From the NCBI RefSeq assembly GCF_002001205.1, contig NZ_MUNZ01000071.1, positions 1 to 64,000 of the forward strand: a stretch of 64,000 nucleotides of DNA, written 5' to 3'. The position numbers and the translations under genes are program-made. This document shows, in pieces, positions 16,873 through 53,753 of this stretch. Source of the DNA: Hydrogenophaga sp. A37 (lineage in GTDB: Bacteria > Pseudomonadota > Gammaproteobacteria > Burkholderiales > Burkholderiaceae_C). The notes below the pieces were generated by a model that worked only from the letters and a program-made list of their open reading frames with translations, was not told the DNA's origin and did not search any database. Every line of letters begins with the position of its first letter. Position 1 is the stretch's first letter.

Positions 16873-17361
16873 TCAACCGCCCCACGGAACAGGCAGGTCC
16901 GGCTTCATGACCATCAACGCGAACACCGCCAGCATGGCCACAAAGGCCGGGTAGCCCAGGCTTTCCCACCAACGCGCAAAGCGCCAGTAGCGCTCGGGCA
17001 GCTCGCCGCCGCTGCCTGCGGTGTGCGCCGCCATGCGTGCCATCTGCAGTTGCAGCCACACCACCGGCAGCCACAGGGCGCCGGTCAGCGCATACAACGC
17101 CAGCGACCAGCCGATCCAGGGCGTGTTCAGCGGCCAGCCCGCCAGGTGCGCCATGGCGATGCCCGTCACCGGCTGCACGATGACCGCGGGCGTGGTGAAC
17201 CAGAGGTCGGCGCGCACCACCAGCCGCGACACCACAGCCTGCGCCGCCAGGTTGCCGCTGCGGTTGGTGAAGAACATGAAGAACGCGGTGCCCAGGCCGG
17301 TGCCCACCAGCAACACGCTGGAGACGATGTGCAGGGTTTTCAGCAGCAGGAAAGTATTCAC
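16873..17361 (-). CDS. DUF2269 family integral membrane protein
   Basis: Protein of 162 residues with four hydrophobic segments, the first being LLKTLHIVSSVLLVGTGLG, typical of DUF2269, which often starts with a His in the first helix. A GTG start at 17361 is chosen because GGAGG sits eight bases upstream; an upstream GTG at 17385 is possible. It is the last gene of a minus-strand trio with a DoxX-like protein and a saccharopine-dehydrogenase-like protein. Function unknown. Confidence 0.75.
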   Translation of the reverse strand: MNTFLLLKTLHIVSSVLLVGTGLGTAFFMFFTNRSGNLAAQAVVSRLVVRADLWFTTPAVIVQPVTGIAMAHLAGWPLNTPWIGWSLALYALTGALWLPVVWLQLQMARMAAHTAGSGGELPERYWRFARWWESLGYPAFVAMLAVFALMVMKPDLPVPWGG

Positions 17362-17422
17362 AGGGCTACCCTCCGTGCTGCGCACTTCGGGGCTGAGCGC
17401 CTTCGGAGCGGCCGGGCGGCGC

Positions 17423-17794
17423 TCATGCGCGTGTGTCCAGGCGCCACAGCAACAGCAGCGCAGCGGCGATGGGGATGTTCTTGCTGAGCGGCCCCAGCGG
17501 GTGCAGCCACCAGCCGGGATCGATGGCCGTGGCCAGCAGCGTCATGAGCCCCATGACGATCAGCGCCGCACCGTAGGCGGGGCGACCGGGGCGCCACCAC
17601 AGCCACAGGCCCAGCAGCGCATCGGTGGCGGCACCGGCGGCGATCAGGGCCGGCTTGAGCCCCGGCCAGGTGTCGGGCAGCGAGGCCAACAGCGCCAGGC
17701 TCTGGCCGTGCCATTCCCACAGCGAAACGAAGGCCGTCCACAGCCAGACAAAGACCAGGCTGAAGCGCAGCCAGCGAAGTTCGGTGTGTGCCAT
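17423..17794 (-). CDS. DoxX-like membrane protein
   Basis: Protein of 123 residues with four membrane segments (FSLVFVWLWTAFVSLW, KPALIAAGAATDALLGLWLW, YGAALIVMGLMTLLATAI, IPIAAALLLLWRL), matching the DoxX-like group. Biochemical role unknown. It starts five bases after the stop of the saccharopine-dehydrogenase-like gene, so the two are an operon and may work on the same substrate. The open frame continues upstream but only as a shadow of that gene. Confidence 0.75.
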   Translation of the reverse strand: MAHTELRWLRFSLVFVWLWTAFVSLWEWHGQSLALLASLPDTWPGLKPALIAAGAATDALLGLWLWWRPGRPAYGAALIVMGLMTLLATAIDPGWWLHPLGPLSKNIPIAAALLLLWRLDTRA

Positions 17795-17799
17795 GGGCG

Positions 17800-18924
17800 T
17801 CAATCGGTGTCGGTGACCATGCCCCAGCGCGCGAATTCCGGGGTGAAGTCGTCCAGCGCCAGCAAACCCGTGGCCGTGTGGGCGCCGGGTGCCGGGCCGT
17901 CGCCACACGCGAGGCGCCGCGCCAGCAGGATGGCCGCCATGCAGGGGATTTGTGGGCCGTGATCGTGGTCGGCGGCGATGTCCCAGCGCGTGTCGGCGTG
18001 CTGTCCTTGCGCATCCAGCCCGGCCACCTGCACGTACATGCCGCCCAGCGCGCTGCCCCATCGGTCGAACAGCGGCGCCCCGCGCAGCAGCCAGGGCGCC
18101 AGGGCCTGCGGGCGCGGCAGCAGGCCCCAGTGGCGCAGCGCCGCCAGCCAGGCGAAAGCGGTTTGAGACAGCGGCACTTCCAGCGCGGCCCGGAACACCA
18201 CCGCTTCTTTCACCTGGTAGTGCACGGGAAACAGTTCCAGGTCGGGGATGTCGCACAGCGCGGCCCGGCGCGGCTGCATGCGCGGGAACCGAACCGGCAC
18301 CGGGTCGGCCCAGCCCAGGGCCTGTTGCCAGCGCCCTTCGCGCCAGATGTCCACCGGCGTGCCGCAGTAGCTGAGCACGGACGCCAGCGTGGCGACACCG
18401 CGCGGGGCGGTCTGGGCCGGGGCGATGCAGACGTAGATGCTGTGGATGGCCTGCCAGCCCTGCGTCAGGTGGTCCACCACCGCAGAGGAGAGCGCCGGCA
18501 CGGTGCTCGCGCCGCTGACGGCACAGCGATGCGCCGCGGCGAAGCGCGCTTGCATGGCCGCAGGGAAGTCGCACACGAAGCGGCGGCCGTCGGCCAGGTC
18601 GATGTAGTGCGCACTGGCGTCGGCGCAGGCCTCGGCCACCGTGTAGCCCTGCGCCTGAAAGGGGCCGGCGGTGTGGATCACCAGACCGACTTTTGCAGCC
18701 TTCAGCCGCGCGGCGAGGTTCGCATCGGTGGCGTCGATCACCATGGCTTGGGCGGCCGATCCGGTTTGTTGGGCCAGCGCTTTCGAACGGGCCTCGTTCC
18801 GTCCGCCGATCAGCAGCTGGATGCCCGGGTCGTTGGCGAGCGCCTGGACGATGCGGGTGCCGAAGTTGCCGTAGCCGCCCAGTACGAGCACGTTGAGGGG
18901 TGGGTGGGTGAGCGTCTGTGGCAT
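17800..18924 (-). CDS. saccharopine dehydrogenase family NAD(P)-binding protein
   Basis: Protein of 374 residues with an N-terminal Rossmann motif GGYGNFGTRIV (residues 16-26) and the following blocks VIDATDANLAARLKAAKVGLVIHTAGPFQ, characteristic of saccharopine-dehydrogenase-like (trans-acting enoyl reductase-like) proteins. The C-terminal domain differs from true saccharopine dehydrogenase, so lysine metabolism should not be inferred. It is the first gene of the minus-strand trio and probably acts at the membrane with the DoxX-like partner. Confidence 0.8.
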   Translation of the reverse strand: MPQTLTHPPLNVLVLGGYGNFGTRIVQALANDPGIQLLIGGRNEARSKALAQQTGSAAQAMVIDATDANLAARLKAAKVGLVIHTAGPFQAQGYTVAEACADASAHYIDLADGRRFVCDFPAAMQARFAAAHRCAVSGASTVPALSSAVVDHLTQGWQAIHSIYVCIAPAQTAPRGVATLASVLSYCGTPVDIWREGRWQQALGWADPVPVRFPRMQPRRAALCDIPDLELFPVHYQVKEAVVFRAALEVPLSQTAFAWLAALRHWGLLPRPQALAPWLLRGAPLFDRWGSALGGMYVQVAGLDAQGQHADTRWDIAADHDHGPQIPCMAAILLARRLACGDGPAPGAHTATGLLALDDFTPEFARWGMVTDTD

Positions 18925-23897: not shown

Positions 23898-24821
23898 ATG
23901 TTTGATCGTCTGAATCTCTACCTCGACCTGATCCGCTGGAACCGCCCGGCGGGCTGGCTGCTGCTCTTGTGGCCCTCACTGTCGGCGCTGTGGGTGGCGG
24001 CGGGTGGTTTCCCCGGCGTGCATCTGCTGGCCGTGTTTGTGCTCGGCACCATCCTCATGCGCAGCGCCGGCTGCTGTGTCAACGACGTGGCCGACCGCGA
24101 GTTCGACAAACACGTCAAGCGCACCGCGCAGCGGCCCGTGACCAGCGGGCGCGTGGGTGTGAAGGAAGCGCTGGGCGTGGGCGCGGTGCTCGCGTTCGCG
24201 GCCTTCTTGCTGGTGCTCACCACCAACGTCGCGACCATGGTGTGGTCGTTCCTGGGGCTGATGTTGGCGCTGGTCTACCCCTACGCCAAGCGCCATGTGT
24301 CCATGCCGCAGGCGGTGCTGGGCGTGGCCTTCAGCTTCGGCATTCCGATGGCGTTTGCGGCGGTGAACGGGGGCCCGGCGCTGGAGCTGTTCGGCGGCAC
24401 AGCGCCGTGGACTTCACAGGGGTTCTGGGCCGGCGTCTGGCACAGCGTGCCGCCGCTGGCCTGGGTGTTGATGGTGGGCAACCTGTTCTGGGTGCTGGCC
24501 TACGACACCGAGTACGCCATGGTCGACCGCGACGACGATCTGCGCATCGGCATGAAGACCTCGGCCATCACGCTGGGCGACGCCGACGTGCCGGCCGTGA
24601 CGGCGTTCTACCTGGTGTTTCTGGGCATCTGGACCGCCGCGCTGTGGGCGGTCGTGAACCCCCTGGTCTGGGGCGGGATGCTGCTGGTGGCGCTGGGCCA
24701 GGTGGTCTGGCACTGGCGCCTGATCAAAGACCGCACGCGCGACGGTTGCTTCAAGGCCTTCCGCCAGAACCACTGGCTGGGCTTCACGGTGTTTGTCGGC
24801 GTGGTGCTCGGGCTGGTTTGA
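23898..24821 (+). CDS. ubiA: 4-hydroxybenzoate polyprenyltransferase
   Basis: Membrane enzyme that attaches the polyprenyl tail to 4-hydroxybenzoate in ubiquinone synthesis. The 307-residue protein has eight to nine membrane segments and both Asp-rich diphosphate/Mg sites: NDVADREFD and the [19 protein letters not shown] block. An ATG three codons upstream (23889) is an equally possible start. It follows oxyR after 81 bases on the same strand. Confidence 0.95.
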
Positions 24822-29150: not shown

Positions 29151-30308
29151 ATGCAGTTATCCCTGGAGCAAGTGGGCAAGACGGTCGGGCCCGCGGCCCA
29201 CCTCTATCCCATGAGCCTGATCCCCGCGCCGAACGCCGTCACGGTGTTGCTGGGTGCGACGCAGGCGGGCAAGACCAGCCTGATGCGCATCATGGCCGGC
29301 CTCGACGTGCCGACCACGGGCCGCGTGCTGGTGGACGGGCGCGACGTGACCGGCATGCCGGTGCGCGAGCGCAACGTGGCCATGGTCTACCAGCAGTTCA
29401 TCAACTACCCCTCGATGACGGTGTTTGACAACATTGCCTCGCCGCTCAAACTGAGTGGGCAATCCAGGGCCGACGTGGACCGCCGGGTGCGCGAGCTGGC
29501 CGATCGGCTGCACATCGACATCTTTCTCGACCGCCTGCCCGCCGAGCTCTCGGGCGGCCAGCAGCAGCGTGTGGCCTTGGCGCGCGCCCTGGCCAAGAAC
29601 GCGCCGCTGATGCTGCTCGACGAACCCCTGGTGAACCTGGACTACAAGCTGCGCGAAGAACTGCGCGAGGAGCTGACCCAGCTGTTCGCCGCTGGCGACT
29701 CCACCGTCATCTACGCCACCACCGAGCCGGGTGAGGCCCTGCTGCTGGGGGGCTACACGGCGGTGATGGACGCGGGCGAGCTGCTGCAGTACGGCCCCAC
29801 GGCCGAGGTCTTCCACCGTCCCAACTCGCTGCGCGTGGCGCGGGCCTTCAGCGACCCGCCGATGAACCTGCTGTCGGCCGAGGTCGCAGAGGGCGGCGCG
29901 CGTCTCAGTGGCGGCCTGCTGCTGGCGGTGAACCTGCCGCCCCACGCGAGCCGCGCATTGACCCTGGGCATCCGCGCCAGCGCCGTGCGCGTGGCGGCCC
30001 GCCCGGGCGACGTGGCACTGCCAGGCACCGTGGAGCTGGCCGAAATCTCCGGCTCCGACACCTTCGTGCACGTGCACACAGCGGTCGGCGAGATCGTGGC
30101 CCAGCTCACCGGCGTGCACGACTTCGCGCTGGGCAGCGCGATCACGCTGCACGTGAACCCCGCGCAGGTGTATGTCTTCAATGACGCCGGCGACCTGCTG
30201 TTTGCCCCCGAGCGCCGGAAGGTGGACATGGCGCCCCCACGTTCACTTCGTTCACTGCCCCCCGAGGGGGCGCAAGCCTCCCTTGGGGCGGCCCGGCGGG
30301 AGTCCTGA
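29151..30308 (+). CDS. glpS: glycerol ABC importer, ATP-binding subunit 1
   Basis: MalK-like ATPase of 385 residues. The Walker A loop is atypical, GATQAGKT (residues 35-42), lacking the usual second Gly. The signature LSGGQQQR (133-140) and Walker B LLDEPLVNLD are intact. The switch histidine is replaced: the block is YATTEPGEA with Thr191 where YVTHDQVEA is normal. A TOBE-like regulatory domain follows. The last about 22 residues (PRSLRSLPPEG...) are read from an intergenic-type palindromic repeat, so the ancestral C-terminus was probably shorter. Works with glpT as a heterodimer on GlpP/GlpQ. First gene of the importer operon. Confidence 0.88.
   Translation: MQLSLEQVGKTVGPAAHLYPMSLIPAPNAVTVLLGATQAGKTSLMRIMAGLDVPTTGRVLVDGRDVTGMPVRERNVAMVYQQFINYPSMTVFDNIASPLKLSGQSRADVDRRVRELADRLHIDIFLDRLPAELSGGQQQRVALARALAKNAPLMLLDEPLVNLDYKLREELREELTQLFAAGDSTVIYATTEPGEALLLGGYTAVMDAGELLQYGPTAEVFHRPNSLRVARAFSDPPMNLLSAEVAEGGARLSGGLLLAVNLPPHASRALTLGIRASAVRVAARPGDVALPGTVELAEISGSDTFVHVHTAVGEIVAQLTGVHDFALGSAITLHVNPAQVYVFNDAGDLLFAPERRKVDMAPPRSLRSLPPEGAQASLGAARRES
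30233..30301. repeat. 3'-end palindromic repeat read as the C-terminus of glpS
   Basis: Contains the CCCCCCGAGGGGG-type hairpin and flanking elements shared with the repeats at 11436-11499, 52838-52912, 56720-56785 and 57737-57804. Here the glpS frame runs through it to a stop at 30306-30308. It occupies the junction between the ATPase genes glpS and glpT. Confidence 0.6.
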
Positions 30309-30309
30309 C

Positions 30310-31379
<1,070 letters not shown>

Positions 31380-31383
<4 letters not shown>

Positions 31384-31415
31384 GCGCAGCGCAGGGCCGC
31401 CCCAAGCAAGCTCGC
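31380..31415 (+). repeat. 36-bp intercistronic ATGA-coupling repeat, copy 1
   Basis: Begins ATGAGCGCAGCGCAGG and ends CCCAAGCAAGCTCGC; 35 of 36 bases recur at 51256-51291 on the other strand. Its TGA is the stop codon of glpT. Its own ATG opens a 22-codon frame (31380-31448, product beginning MSAAQGRPKQAR) whose stop overlaps the ATG of glpP, again as ATGA. Confidence 0.75.
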
Positions 31416-31448
31416 GCCGCAGTGCAACGCACGGAGGTATTCGAATGA
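31380..31448 (+). CDS. 22-residue mini-frame bridging glpT and glpP (possible coupling peptide)
   Basis: Starts at the ATGA that ends glpT and stops at the ATGA that begins glpP. Terminating ribosomes could thus re-initiate twice and stay coupled through the 61-base gap. The first 12 residues are encoded by a repeat found again before the marR gene. The peptide itself need have no function. GGAGG for glpP lies inside this frame. Confidence 0.35.
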
Positions 31449-32335
31449 GCACAACAACCAAACCTGTCAACCAGAAGGCCTGGTTCCTGATCCTGCCGGT
31501 CCTGGTCTGCGTGGCCTTCTCGGCCATCCTGCCGCTGATGACGGTGGTGAACTACTCGGTGCAGGACATCATTTCGCCCGAGCGCCGCGTCTTCGTCGGC
31601 ACCGAGTGGTTTGCCGCCGTCATGCGCGACGAAGACCTGCACGCCGCGCTCTGGAACCAGTTGAAGTTCTCGGGTGCCGTGCTGCTGGTGGAGATTCCGC
31701 TGGGCATCGCGCTGGCGCTGTCCATGCCGGCCGACGGCTGGAAGGCCTCGGCCACGCTGGTGATCGTGGCGCTGTCGCTGCTGATCCCGTGGAACGTGGT
31801 GGGCACGATCTGGCAGATCTTTGGCCGTGCCGACATTGGGCTGATGGGCCACACGCTGCAGACCCTTGGCATCGAGTACAGCTACACCGGTGACGCCTTG
31901 CACGCCTGGCTCACCGTGCTGCTGATGGACATCTGGCACTGGACGCCGCTGGTGGCGCTGCTGGCCTACGCCGGACTGCGCAGCATTCCCGACGCCTACT
32001 ACCAGGCCGCGCGCATCGATGGCGCCAGCAAGTTCGCGGTGTTCCGCTACATCCAGCTGCCCAAGATGCGCGGCGTGCTGATGATCGCGGTGCTGCTGCG
32101 CTTCATGGACAGTTTCATGATCTACACAGAGCCCTTTGTGTTGACCGGCGGCGGACCCGGCAACGCCACGACCTTCCTCAGCCAGTACCTGACGCAGAAG
32201 GCCGTGGGGCAGTTCGATCTCGGCCCCGCCGCCGCGTTCTCGCTGATCTATTTCCTCATCATCCTGCTGTTCTGCTTCGTGCTCTACAACTGGATGCAAC
32301 GCCTCGGTGAAGCAGAGAAAGAGGTGCAATCGTGA
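31445..32335 (+). CDS. glpP: glycerol ABC importer, permease subunit 1
   Basis: Binding-protein-dependent transport permease of 296 residues with six membrane segments. The cytoplasmic EAA loop is seen as YYQAARIDGASKFAVFRYIQLP, where the ATPases dock. GGAGG lies seven bases upstream of ATG 31445. The stop overlaps the GTG start of glpQ by four bases. Sugar- or polyol-type importer permease of the MalF class; assignment to glycerol rests on glpK, glpR and glpD around it. Confidence 0.88.
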   Translation: MSTTTKPVNQKAWFLILPVLVCVAFSAILPLMTVVNYSVQDIISPERRVFVGTEWFAAVMRDEDLHAALWNQLKFSGAVLLVEIPLGIALALSMPADGWKASATLVIVALSLLIPWNVVGTIWQIFGRADIGLMGHTLQTLGIEYSYTGDALHAWLTVLLMDIWHWTPLVALLAYAGLRSIPDAYYQAARIDGASKFAVFRYIQLPKMRGVLMIAVLLRFMDSFMIYTEPFVLTGGGPGNATTFLSQYLTQKAVGQFDLGPAAAFSLIYFLIILLFCFVLYNWMQRLGEAEKEVQS

Positions 32336-50721: not shown

Positions 50722-51225
50722 CTACTCTGCTTCGGTGACGATGCGTTGGTTGATGTCCAATTGATGCTGTTTGACCTTGCCCAGCAGCTTGTGCAGGCTG
50801 TCGAGGTCGCGGGGTGACAGGCCATCGAAGGCCTCGACGATCCATTGTTCGTGTTGCGTCGCCATGTGTTCAAAGGCGCTGCGGCCCGCAGGTGTGAGCC
50901 GCACAAGGAACGCCCTGCGATCCCCTTCGACCGCCATGCGTTCCACCAGGCCTTCGGCCACCAATTGGTCGGTGATGCCGGTGACGTTGCCGCCGGTGAC
51001 CATGAGCCGGTGCGACAGTTCCTTCATCTTCAGACCCTCCGGGTGGCGTTCGAGCTGTGCCATCAGGTCGAAGCGCGGCAGCGTGGTGTCGAACTGCTCG
51101 CGCAGCCCGCCCCGCACGCGTTTTTCGATCAGCTGCGAGCAGGTCAGCAGGCGCAGCCAGAGGCGCAGTTCCTGCGCGTGTTCGCTGTGGGCGCGGGCTT
51201 CGAGATCGAGGGTGTCGGTGAGCAT
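50722..51225 (-). CDS. MarR-family regulator of the aryl-CoA operon
   Basis: Protein of 167 residues with a winged HTH (MKELSHRLMVTGGNVTGITDQLVAEGLVER, DRRAFLVRLT). Members of this family often sense aryl-CoA esters or aromatic acids and derepress degradation operons. ATG 51225 is chosen because GGAGG lies seven bases upstream. An alternative ATG at 51291, overlapping the monooxygenase stop and supplied by the 36-bp repeat, is in frame and would add 22 residues. A matching palindrome sits at the head of the operon (53754-53770). Confidence 0.85.
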   Translation of the reverse strand: MLTDTLDLEARAHSEHAQELRLWLRLLTCSQLIEKRVRGGLREQFDTTLPRFDLMAQLERHPEGLKMKELSHRLMVTGGNVTGITDQLVAEGLVERMAVEGDRRAFLVRLTPAGRSAFEHMATQHEQWIVEAFDGLSPRDLDSLHKLLGKVKQHQLDINQRIVTEAE

Positions 51226-51255
51226 GGGCATTCCTCCGTTCCATCGGGTTGTGGT

Positions 51256-51291
51256 GCGAGCTTGCTTGGGGCGGTCCTGCGCTGCGCTCAT
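51256..51291 (-). repeat. 36-bp intercistronic ATGA-coupling repeat, copy 2
   Basis: 35 of 36 bases match 31380-31415. Read on the minus strand its ATGA contains the stop codon of the monooxygenase gene, and its ATG opens a frame ([12 protein letters not shown]...) that here runs in frame into marR. Confidence 0.75.
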
Positions 51292-53753
51292 TGGGCTTCC
51301 GCCGGGTCGGTGGTGGCGGTCGCTACCAGCAGCGCCTGCTGGCGCGCGATCTCGCGGTACAGCTGATCGCGACCACTCAGGTAGGGCTGTGGCCAATCGA
51401 TGGCGCGGGTCTGCAGCTTGGCGGCCTCATGCAATGTCCAGGCCGGGTCGGCCAAGTGCGGCCGGGCCACGGCGCAGAGGTCGGCGCGGCCGGCGCCGAT
51501 GATGCTGTTGGCGTGGTCGGCCTCGCTGATCGCCCCCACGGCCATGGTGAGGATGTCCACCTCGTTGCGCACGCGGTCGGCGAACGGTGTCTGGTACATG
51601 CGGCCATAGACCGGTTTGGCCTGGCGCGTGGTCTGGCCCGAAGACACGTCGATCACGTCGCAGCCGGCGGCCTTGAACAGCCGAGCCATGGCCACCGCGT
51701 CATCGGGCGTGTTGCCGCCAGGTGCCCAGTCGTGCGCCGAGATGCGCACGCTCATGGGCTTGTCGGCTGGCCACGCGGCGCGCATGGCGGCGAACACCTC
51801 CAGCGGGTAGCGGCAGCGGTTGACCAGCGAGCCACCGTATTCGTCGGTGCGCTGGTTGGTGAGTGGACAGATGAAGGCCGAGAGAAGGTAGCCATGGGCG
51901 CAGTGCAGTTCCAGCCAGTCGAAGCCGGCGGCGGCGGCGCGCTGGGTGGAGGCGACAAAGGCGGCGGTCATCGCGTCCATGTCGGCGCGGTTCATGGCTT
52001 TGGGCACCTGGTTCTGTTCGCCGTACGGCACGGCGCTGGCCGAGAGCAGCGGCCAGTTGCCGTGTTGCAGCGGTTCGTCGGTGGTTTCCCACCCCAGCTG
52101 TGTCGAACCCTTGGGGCCGCTGTGGCCGATCTGGATGCCGATCTTGGCGCTGCTGTTGCGGTGTGTGAAGTCCACGATGCGCTGGAAGGCGGCCTGTTGC
52201 GCGTCGTTCCACAGACCCGGGCAGCCGGGGGTGATGCGGCCTTCGGGTGTCGGGCTGGTCATCTCCACCATCACCAGCGCCGCGCCACCCACGGCGCGCG
52301 CGCCCAGGTGCACCAGGTGCCAGTCGCCCGCCACGCCGTCGGTGGCTTTGTACTGCGCCATGGGCGAGACGACGATGCGGTTCTTCAGCTCGACGCTGCG
52401 CACCTTCAACGGCAACAGCATGGGCGGTGTCGGGTGCTTCTTCGGCGCGTTGCTGGGTACGGCCTTGGACTCCAGCCAGCTTTCGTAACCTTCCAGCCAT
52501 TCCGGATCGCGCAGGCGCAGGTTCTCGTGGCTGATGCGCTGGCTGCGCGTGAGCAACGAGTAGCTGAACTGTTGAATGTCCATGCCGGTGTAGCGGTCCA
52601 CATTTTCGAACCACTCAGTGGAGTTGCGCGCCGCGTTCTGGATTTTCAGAACCTCCACGCTGCGGCGGGCTTCATAGCCTTGCAGCACGGTGGCCATGTC
52701 GGCGCCCGCGTTCTTCGAGAACTCGTCCGCCAGATCGATCGCGTCTTCCAGCGCCAGTTTGGTGCCGCTGCCGATGGAGAAGTGCGCGGTGTGCGCCGCA
52801 TCGCCCATCAGCACGATGGGAATGCGGCGGCCGCGGTCCGGCGCTGGGCCGCCCCGAGCCGGACCAGCCCCCTCGGGGGGCAGCGACCCGCGCAGCGGTG
52901 GAGCGTGGGGGTCGGCAATGTCCTGCCAGTGCACCCAGGTGTCGCAAATCACGCGCGGAAAGCGGATCCAGTTGGCCGAGCCGCGCAGGTGTTTGGCGTT
53001 GCTGATGAGGGCGTTGCCGTCCAGGTACTTCGCGAACAGCCTTTCGCAGAAGGCGACGCCGTCTTCCTGGCTCATGTCCTCGATGCCGTGCGCCTTCCAC
53101 ACGGCTTCCGGTGTCTCGACGATGAAGGTGGAGGTGTCGGCGTCGTACTTGTAGGCGTGGGCCTGGAACCAGCCGTGTTCGGTCTGCTCGAACGCGAAGG
53201 TGAAGGCGTCAAAGGTCTTCTTCGTGCCGAGCCAGACGAAGCGGCACTGGCGCGTGTCGATGTCGGGCTGGTAGGTGCTTTCATAGCGTGTGCGGATGCG
53301 GCTGTTCAGGCCGTCGCTCGCGATCACGAGGTCGGCGTTGTACTGTGCGGCCAGCGCCTGGTCGTCGGTCACGTCGGTCTCGAACACGAGTTCCACGCCC
53401 AGCGCCAGACAGCGTTCCTGCAGGATGTTGAGCAGGCGCTTGCGGCCGATGCCGATGAAGCCATGGCCACCGGATCGCACGCGACCGCCCTTGTAGAAGA
53501 CTTCGATGTCGTCCCAGTGGTTGAAGGCATCGGCCATCTGTTGGGCCGACTCCGGGTCCGCGCGACGCAGGTTCTGCAGAGTCTGGTCGGAGAACACCAC
53601 ACCCCAGCCGAAGGTGTCAAACGGGCGGTTGCGCTCGACCACCGTGACGGTGAGCGAAGGGTCGCGCCGCTTCATCAGCAAGGCAAAGTACAGGCCCGCC
53701 GGGCCGCCACCGATGCACAGGATGCGCCGCAGCGCTGGATGAGGTGTGTTCAT
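51288..53753 (-). CDS. 2-aminobenzoyl-CoA monooxygenase/reductase-type fusion (FAD monooxygenase + old yellow enzyme)
   Basis: Protein of 821 residues. Residues 1-400 form a group A flavoprotein monooxygenase: the GGGPAG motif at 15-20, [14 protein letters not shown], and [17 protein letters not shown] near 315, as in salicylyl-CoA 5-hydroxylase. Residues about 440-800 form an NADH:flavin oxidoreductase ([60 protein letters not shown]). This fusion is the hallmark of the Azoarcus-type enzyme that hydroxylates and reduces 2-aminobenzoyl-CoA. About 25 residues before the GDAAH block are encoded by a palindromic repeat. First gene of the operon; ATG abuts a palindromic operator. Confidence 0.88.
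52838..52912. repeat. palindromic repeat read in frame inside the monooxygenase gene
   Basis: About 75 bases with the CCCCCTCGGGGGG hairpin, a GCCGCCCCGAGCCGG unit and a terminal GTGGGGG, the same composition as the 3'-end repeats. On the coding strand it encodes [20 protein letters not shown] and flanking residues, an insertion immediately ahead of the conserved GDAAH flavin block. Confidence 0.65.

Follow-up and report, generated by a model that had tools for sequence, protein, structure and literature searches.

One element at three operon junctions

Why should operon junctions that have no genes in common carry the same short stretch of DNA, placed so exactly that an ATGA at its edge closes the upstream gene? 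The question is raised by the first 64,000 nucleotides of contig NZ_MUNZ01000071.1 of Hydrogenophaga sp. A37 (hereafter the window), in which an earlier note, made from the letters alone, had seen a 36-bp repeat that supplies stop/start coupling at two junctions. Both 36-mer copies were confirmed, at 31380-31415 (+ strand) and 51256-51291 (- strand), with a single difference between them, and no match appeared in 100 dinucleotide shuffles. At the first copy, as the note had read it, the stop of the upstream gene (frame open for 408 codons) is the TGA of the ATGA, and the ATG of the repeat starts a 22-codon frame, MSAAQGRPKQARAAVQRTEVFE, whose own TGA lies inside the ATGA at 31445-31448, the next start. 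At the second, the TGA is the stop of an 821-aa upstream gene, and the frame of the repeat continues in phase into marR, the ATG at 51291 being in frame with the marR start at 51225 (or 51231).

Two parts of the earlier description had to be enlarged. The repeat is real, but the conserved unit is about 65 nt long rather than 36; the 36-mer is its head, and a hairpin and a Shine-Dalgarno-like tail also belong to it. The neighbouring genes are indeed unrelated from junction to junction, as judged by Pfam domain matches at all three window junctions, but the count of two was too low: a third copy lies in the window, and 76 copies were tabulated in the genome. Copy 3 has the layout of copy 1, with a mini-ORF, MSAARPLRRRSAPKCAARRVAL, that overlaps the upstream gene at an ATGA and the downstream gene at a GTGA. 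At copy 2, the marR junction, the Shine-Dalgarno-like tail is degenerate. The features are collected in Table 1; E-values are those of the covariance model described below.

Table 1. Element copies and adjoining genes in the window.
Feature	Position	Strand	Remarks
Element copy 1, sub-type A	31380..31448	+	E=5.1e-20 (copy 1 itself is among the model sequences); mini-ORF MSAAQGRPKQARAAVQRTEVFE; ATGA overlaps at both ends
Hairpin GTGC-AAC-GCAC of copy 1	31422..31432	+	Element positions 43-46 with 50-53; covariation
Shine-Dalgarno-like GGAGG of copy 1	31433..31437	+	7 nt 5' of downstream ATG
ABC transporter ATPase upstream of copy 1 ("glpT" in the earlier note)	30310..31383	+	PF00005, TOBE_2, OB_MalK; start codon picked by eye; stop TGA within the first ATGA of the element
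ABC transporter permease downstream of copy 1 ("glpP" in the earlier note)	31445..32335	+	PF00528
Element copy 2, sub-type A head, degenerate tail	51225..51291	-	E=5.6e-12
821-aa protein upstream of copy 2, FAD-binding and NADH:flavin oxidoreductase domains	51288..53753	-	PF00724, PF01494
MarR-family regulator downstream of copy 2	50722..51225	-	PF01047
Element copy 3, sub-type C (absent from the earlier note)	17358..17426	-	E=5.2e-6
DoxX-like membrane protein upstream of copy 3, 3' part of gene	17423..17800	-	PF13781
DUF2269 membrane protein downstream of copy 3	16873..17361	-	PF10027; start GTG at 17361

Structure of the element and its sub-types

When up to three mismatches were allowed, the 36-mer was found in 14 copies in the 5.55-Mb genome, and the reversed pattern, searched under the same limit, gave no match. 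Eleven of the 14 copies share a continuation made up of CCGCAG, a hairpin of 4 bp with a 3-nt loop, a GGAGG-like stretch, 7 nt and RTGA (in one case TTGA); the hairpin is intact in 10 of these and broken in one. The general plan of the element, which spans 62-66 nt, is RTGA, a GC-rich head, CCGCAG, a small covarying hairpin, GGAGG, about 7 nt and a second RTGA. Its usual coding content is a mini-ORF of 20-22 codons that overlaps both neighbouring genes, its start with the stop of the upstream gene and its stop with the start of the downstream one.

The hairpin covaries. Among the 11 copies from its own genome, pairing holds in 95.5% of cells, and there are 8 double changes. In 101 copies from other genomes all 393 of 393 cells pair, 73 of them double-changed, a score that none of 500 shuffles reached, in a set that is biased because the copies were fitted to the model and most were found with a pattern fixing pairs 1 and 4 and requiring Y/R at pair 2. 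Pair 3, which that pattern left free, is G-C in 70 copies of the same set, C-G in 26, G-U in 2 and broken in none. Support for structure is limited to this 4-bp hairpin; a stable fold of the whole element was ruled out, four A-type copies being less stable than their shuffles (z +0.5 to +2.1).

Upstream of the element, a Shine-Dalgarno-like motif precedes the head ATG in 28 of 69 own-genome copies and 33 of 84 copies from other genomes, compared with 19 of 276 and 46 of 336 control positions. Such an excess is expected if the ATG of the element takes over the site of the old start.

We distinguished sub-types A to D and T (the labels are ours). Sub-type A has the next start at +65 and a closed mini-ORF, whereas the head of sub-type B is 1 nt longer, its next start lies at +66 and its frame runs into the downstream gene. 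Sub-type C has a different head with the next start at +65, and sub-type D, seen in Variovorax and others, has it at +62. The minority T-type shares the 36-nt head, which is followed by a terminator-like tail with a strong CCCCC/GGGGG hairpin. Two T-type copies (L277, L138) run from RTGA to RTGA in 86 nt (lengths counted by hand), three (L278, L280, L281) do not and are sited away from RTGA overlaps, and one (L126) is joined directly to an A-type copy. The T-type was ruled out as the main form in the genome, where it gave only 6 pattern matches. Tandem copies, with periods of 62, 65 or 66 nt, chain their mini-ORFs.

Phase relative to stops and starts

A random position of the copies relative to stop codons would have spoken against the coupling idea. 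This was not what we found: the upstream stop overlaps the element at +1 in 43 of 69 own-genome copies (62%) and in 68 of 83 evaluable copies from other genomes (82%), while only 246 of 3621 background RTGA sites (6.8%) have an upstream stop at their TGA. The 69 own-genome copies were those counted as non-tandem; 26 of them are without the +1 stop, of which 13 have a stop 1-60 nt earlier and two are in fact second tandem copies filed under another locus id. With +1 stops so far above background, the portable translational-coupling cassette proposed in the earlier note fits well, the coupling itself being suggested by the layout of the DNA.

The distance from the head ATG to the next start could be scored in 135 of 177 copies, the other 42 having no head start or no downstream start under the rule used. 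It is 2 mod 3, the overlap phase, in 93 of the 135 (85 with the TGA of the mini-ORF exactly at the next start), 0 mod 3, the fusion phase, in 38 (37 reading through in frame) and 1 mod 3, neither phase, in 4, counts that are not independent, as sub-types share ancestry and the scoring favoured a 7-nt Shine-Dalgarno spacing. More telling on frame constraint than these counts are the compensating indels: seven copies with the longer B-type head (L026, L077, L078, L080, L146, L161, L188) carry a deletion that brings them back to 65 nt. Lengths of 44, 59, 62 and 65 nt all fit the phase.

Empty and filled alleles of the same junctions

Relatives carry empty alleles of the copy 1 site, the junction of the ABC transporter genes (the glp junction). 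A 921-nt query spanning this junction matched each of 67 genomes of the genus, in some of them only at the repeat elsewhere, and the comparison comprised 30 junction loci from 30 genomes, that of Hydrogenophaga sp. A37 included. The junction is empty in 20 of the 30. Each of these 20 has a single RTGA (19 ATGA, 1 GTGA) whose TGA closes an upstream frame of 60 codons or more, and stop and start simply overlap by 4 nt. The other 10 are filled by inserts of 65 nt (6 loci), 2x65 nt (2), 62 nt (1) and 59 nt (1). In all of these, the first RTGA closes the upstream frame, and each mini-ORF stops exactly where the next start lies. This layout is kept even in two filled loci (L237, L238) that scarcely resemble the element, where likeness may have been lost or the filler may be a different one.

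On a tree of the glp flanks, explaining the distribution of the insert takes 8 gains or losses, 4 or more of them on supported branches, and the filled allele of Hydrogenophaga sp. A37 shares a supported clade with two empty ones. The filled state does not cluster on this tree more than shuffled labels do. Gain or loss has recurred at one junction; precise loss, instead of gain, may be the source of the patchy presence.

Other junctions gave the same picture. When 11 further junctions were compared with five genomes (20 matches read), 5 gave informative empty alleles, 15 in all and every one with RTGA at the site. Four of the 15 are orthologous alleles of the marR junction, which also yielded one filled allele. 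The other six junctions gave a filled ortholog only (1), a filled ortholog and a comparator without RTGA (1), an upstream region that could not be aligned (1) or no usable match (3). The comparator without RTGA at the aligned site is L270, compared with L023. Overall, the seven junctions provide 36 alleles that lack the element, and RTGA stands at the aligned site in 35 of them. These alignments show a precise insertion/deletion unit of about 65 nt at RTGA that keeps the overlap or fusion phase.

Distribution of the element

The family was surveyed with a covariance model of 72 columns built from 11 copies, whose E-values are rough. In its own genome the model gave 107 matches at E<=1; the tabulated 76 copies are 81 matches less 6 duplicates and 2 weak partial matches, plus 3 tandem copies, with 31 weaker matches omitted. 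Matches at E<=1e-4 were found in 113 of 200 genomes sampled from the family (86 of 141 genera), and at E<=0.01 in 35 of 36 genomes of the genus (own included) and in 2 of 24 genomes from other families of the order, with one weak hit each. In addition, a pattern scan of named genomes returned at least 80 loci, and the titles listed were all Burkholderiales or proteobacterial MAGs named at a higher rank; the genera among the matches listed include Variovorax, Hydrogenophaga, Rhodoferax, Acidovorax, Ramlibacter, Albitalea and others. Sub-type C and the glp junction are shared with loci titled Hydrogenophaga (L118, L140, L166), the genus of the window.

One copy on a Variovorax plasmid (L284, NZ_LR594673.1) has no co-directional gene listed upstream; about 200 nt before it, on the opposite strand, there is a transposase gene of the IS110 family.

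Ends of the element and candidate transposases

The R of the left RTGA differs from that of the right in 54 of 125 copies, a strict 4-bp target-site duplication being unsupported for that reason, although later mutation is possible; the right RTG is followed by A in 115 of 125. Given this difference and the GTG in which most sub-type B copies end, the element seems to bring its own right end.

The single match to a Y1 transposase in the Hydrogenophaga sp. A37 genome had no link to the element that we could find. Y1_Tnp matches occur in 57 of 66 genomes of the genus, with no visible relation to the copy number of the element when the two were compared by eye, and the own-genome Y1 transposase is therefore unsupported as the mobiliser. 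At L256 (G000:C162 near 24345-24629) we noted a Y1 transposase-like gene, a 237-aa ORF, which we take to be a RAYT. An adjoining ORF repeats the peptide INWGQI in its translation, which suggests a different repeat at that place.

A proposed relay and its alternatives

Taken together, we consider it likely that the element is a mini-cistron that is mobile, has the start/stop overlap as its insertion site and passes ribosomes on by termination and reinitiation; we infer translation of the mini-ORF, coupling, gain as the direction of change, selfish persistence and a mobilising enzyme. On this proposal, a small, dispersed, non-autonomous element would insert just 3' of an RTGA at which the start of an operon gene overlaps the previous stop, and because the element ends in an RTGA of its own, one -4 overlap would become two. 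The upstream stop would then overlap the ATG of the element, which would take over the old ribosome-binding site, and the mini-ORF of 20-22 codons would end in the downstream start, just past the hairpin and GGAGG. Ribosomes ending the upstream gene would be relayed via the mini-ORF, translating across the small hairpin, in two rounds of termination and reinitiation, so that downstream expression would survive the insertion. In sub-type B, the head longer by 1 nt places the mini-ORF in frame with the downstream gene.

According to a 2023 study (PMC10666635), a gap of about 20 nt almost abolishes coupling in the six gene pairs tested, so that an insert of 61 nt without an ORF should be costly.

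The covarying hairpin directly 5' of GGAGG, and the fact that DNA rather than peptide is kept between sub-types A and B, would also suit a regulatory RNA recruited by the host, in which translation downstream is set by the hairpin and Shine-Dalgarno sequence, the open frame being incidental. We hold this to be unlikely, as the RTGA-to-RTGA phase survives length variants and compensating indels, the three junctions in the window have unrelated genes, presence is patchy at one junction among near relatives, and the copies matched no family in an Rfam search, in which the sole match of the window was a tRNA. Far less probable still is a leader or stalling peptide (MSAA-GRPKQAR...), even though the mini-ORFs of types A and C encode recurrent, recognisable peptides. 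Here the earlier note, which had singled out MSAAQ(G/D)RPKQAR as a conserved peptide, did not hold: sub-type B reads nearly the same DNA in a different frame (MSAAPGRSQASSHRSPQGEG), and the peptide is thus not the conserved entity. Furthermore, sub-types C and D encode peptides other than that of A, and the two diverged glp inserts keep the frame without the peptide.

The least credible reading is that of an ordinary intergenic REP/MITE-like repeat whose stop/start overlap is a coincidence in a compact genome. The genus does have other small repeats, and some T-type relatives (L278, L280, L281) lie outside RTGA overlaps, but the excess of +1 stops (43 of 69 and 68 of 83, against the 6.8% background) and the RTGA that waits at the aligned site in nearly all element-free alleles already contradict it.

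Comparison with known systems and significance

The relay by a mobile mini-cistron that we favour has a counterpart outside the Pseudomonadota. The earlier note knew of no repeat to which a coupling role had been ascribed; mycobacterial MIRUs have such a description, and a 2025 review (PMC12548453) presents them as repeats, apparently mobile, with start codons as their insertion sites and an internal ORF coupled at -4 nt. As this is nearly identical to the behaviour of our element, we regard the latter as a MIRU-like family in Comamonadaceae; by analogy it works like a MIRU, without being classed as one, since the taxon differs and the likeness is one of described behaviour. Shared features are the short, dispersed, many-copy repeat (107 matches in its own genome, 113 of 200 family genomes), an internal ORF with a 4-nt overlap between its stop and the downstream start (85 of the 135 copies that could be scored, with 37 more as in-frame fusions) and insertion at a start codon within a coupling site (RTGA in 35 of 36 element-free alleles, stop/start overlaps in 20 of 20 at glp). 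The MIRU paper of Supply et al. 1997 (Mol Microbiol 26:991) is said to propose transposition into DTGA sites. What separates the two is the phylum (Comamonadaceae, Pseudomonadota, versus mycobacteria). For the Comamonadaceae element we document a hairpin that covaries, followed by a GGAGG tail, a sub-type fused in frame, mini-ORFs chained in tandem and empty alleles that can be aligned. Among the best matches of the long lists returned by a literature search, we found no publication naming the repeat in Comamonadaceae.

Elements of the IS200/IS605 type insert 3' of a fixed tetranucleotide and have a similar tetranucleotide at their right end. With its tetranucleotide-flanked insertion and small terminal hairpin our element recalls these and RAYT/REP systems (for REPs, PMC3733652), but no transposase could be linked to it here. 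Judged by eye, it also appears to differ from REPs, since the 5' foot of its hairpin has CCGCAG and no GTAG/CGTC tag, although GTAG does occur a few nt further 3' in several C-type copies. With Rickettsia palindromic elements (RPEs) and ERIC/RU-1 MITEs it shares small size, probable mobility, an open frame and in-frame fusion to host genes; those elements are described inside ORFs or in intergenic DNA (PMC10969869, PMC2229807), whereas ours sits at the stop/start overlap as a closed mini-cistron. Insertion within an ORF, as for RPEs, was not seen among the inserts with empty alleles, all of which lie at gene junctions, and sub-type B is fused to the downstream gene only. The mgtQ-type small ORF between mgtC and mgtB is likewise a short ORF in an operon gap that controls downstream translation, described at a single locus (PMC8092293), whereas the element here is a dispersed repeat.

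It is quite possible, if short of probable, that Comamonadaceae hold independently evolved and recently active mobile mini-cistrons that target the start/stop overlap itself, which would make the class a recurrent one and not a mycobacterial oddity. If so, operons could acquire, lose or retune translational coupling by the insertion of a complete relay (start, hairpin, Shine-Dalgarno sequence and stop/start) that can be chained in tandem or can swap its tail, for example for a terminator-like hairpin. The element extends the MIRU idea, which we found described for mycobacteria only, to another lineage, in which several genomes hold dozens of copies. The frame constraint is evidence from evolution that it pays to keep coupling at 4-nt overlaps, and natural empty and filled pairs of one operon junction offer material for a direct test of termination and reinitiation at a mini-ORF. 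For annotation, mini-ORFs of this kind may be missed, as at the one intact junction looked at on a Variovorax plasmid, where the gene table, itself incomplete, has no entry for the 61 nt that separate two permease genes. Where the copy is of sub-type B, the start annotated for the gene downstream can be displaced.

Other repeats beside the element

Two further observations concern different repeats. Just upstream of the element at L034 (G000:C139 near 5606) lies another repeat, present in many copies and about 70-120 nt long, to which most of the matches listed in five relatives fall (query positions of about 699-801). Within the window, similar stretches occur in two unrelated proteins, APPRSLRSLPPEGA at about 30230-30308 (+ strand) and a 13-residue stretch at about 52823-52935 (- strand), with positions estimated from the translations; stretches of the APPRSLRSLPPEGA type are probably another dispersed repeat that is translated in frame.
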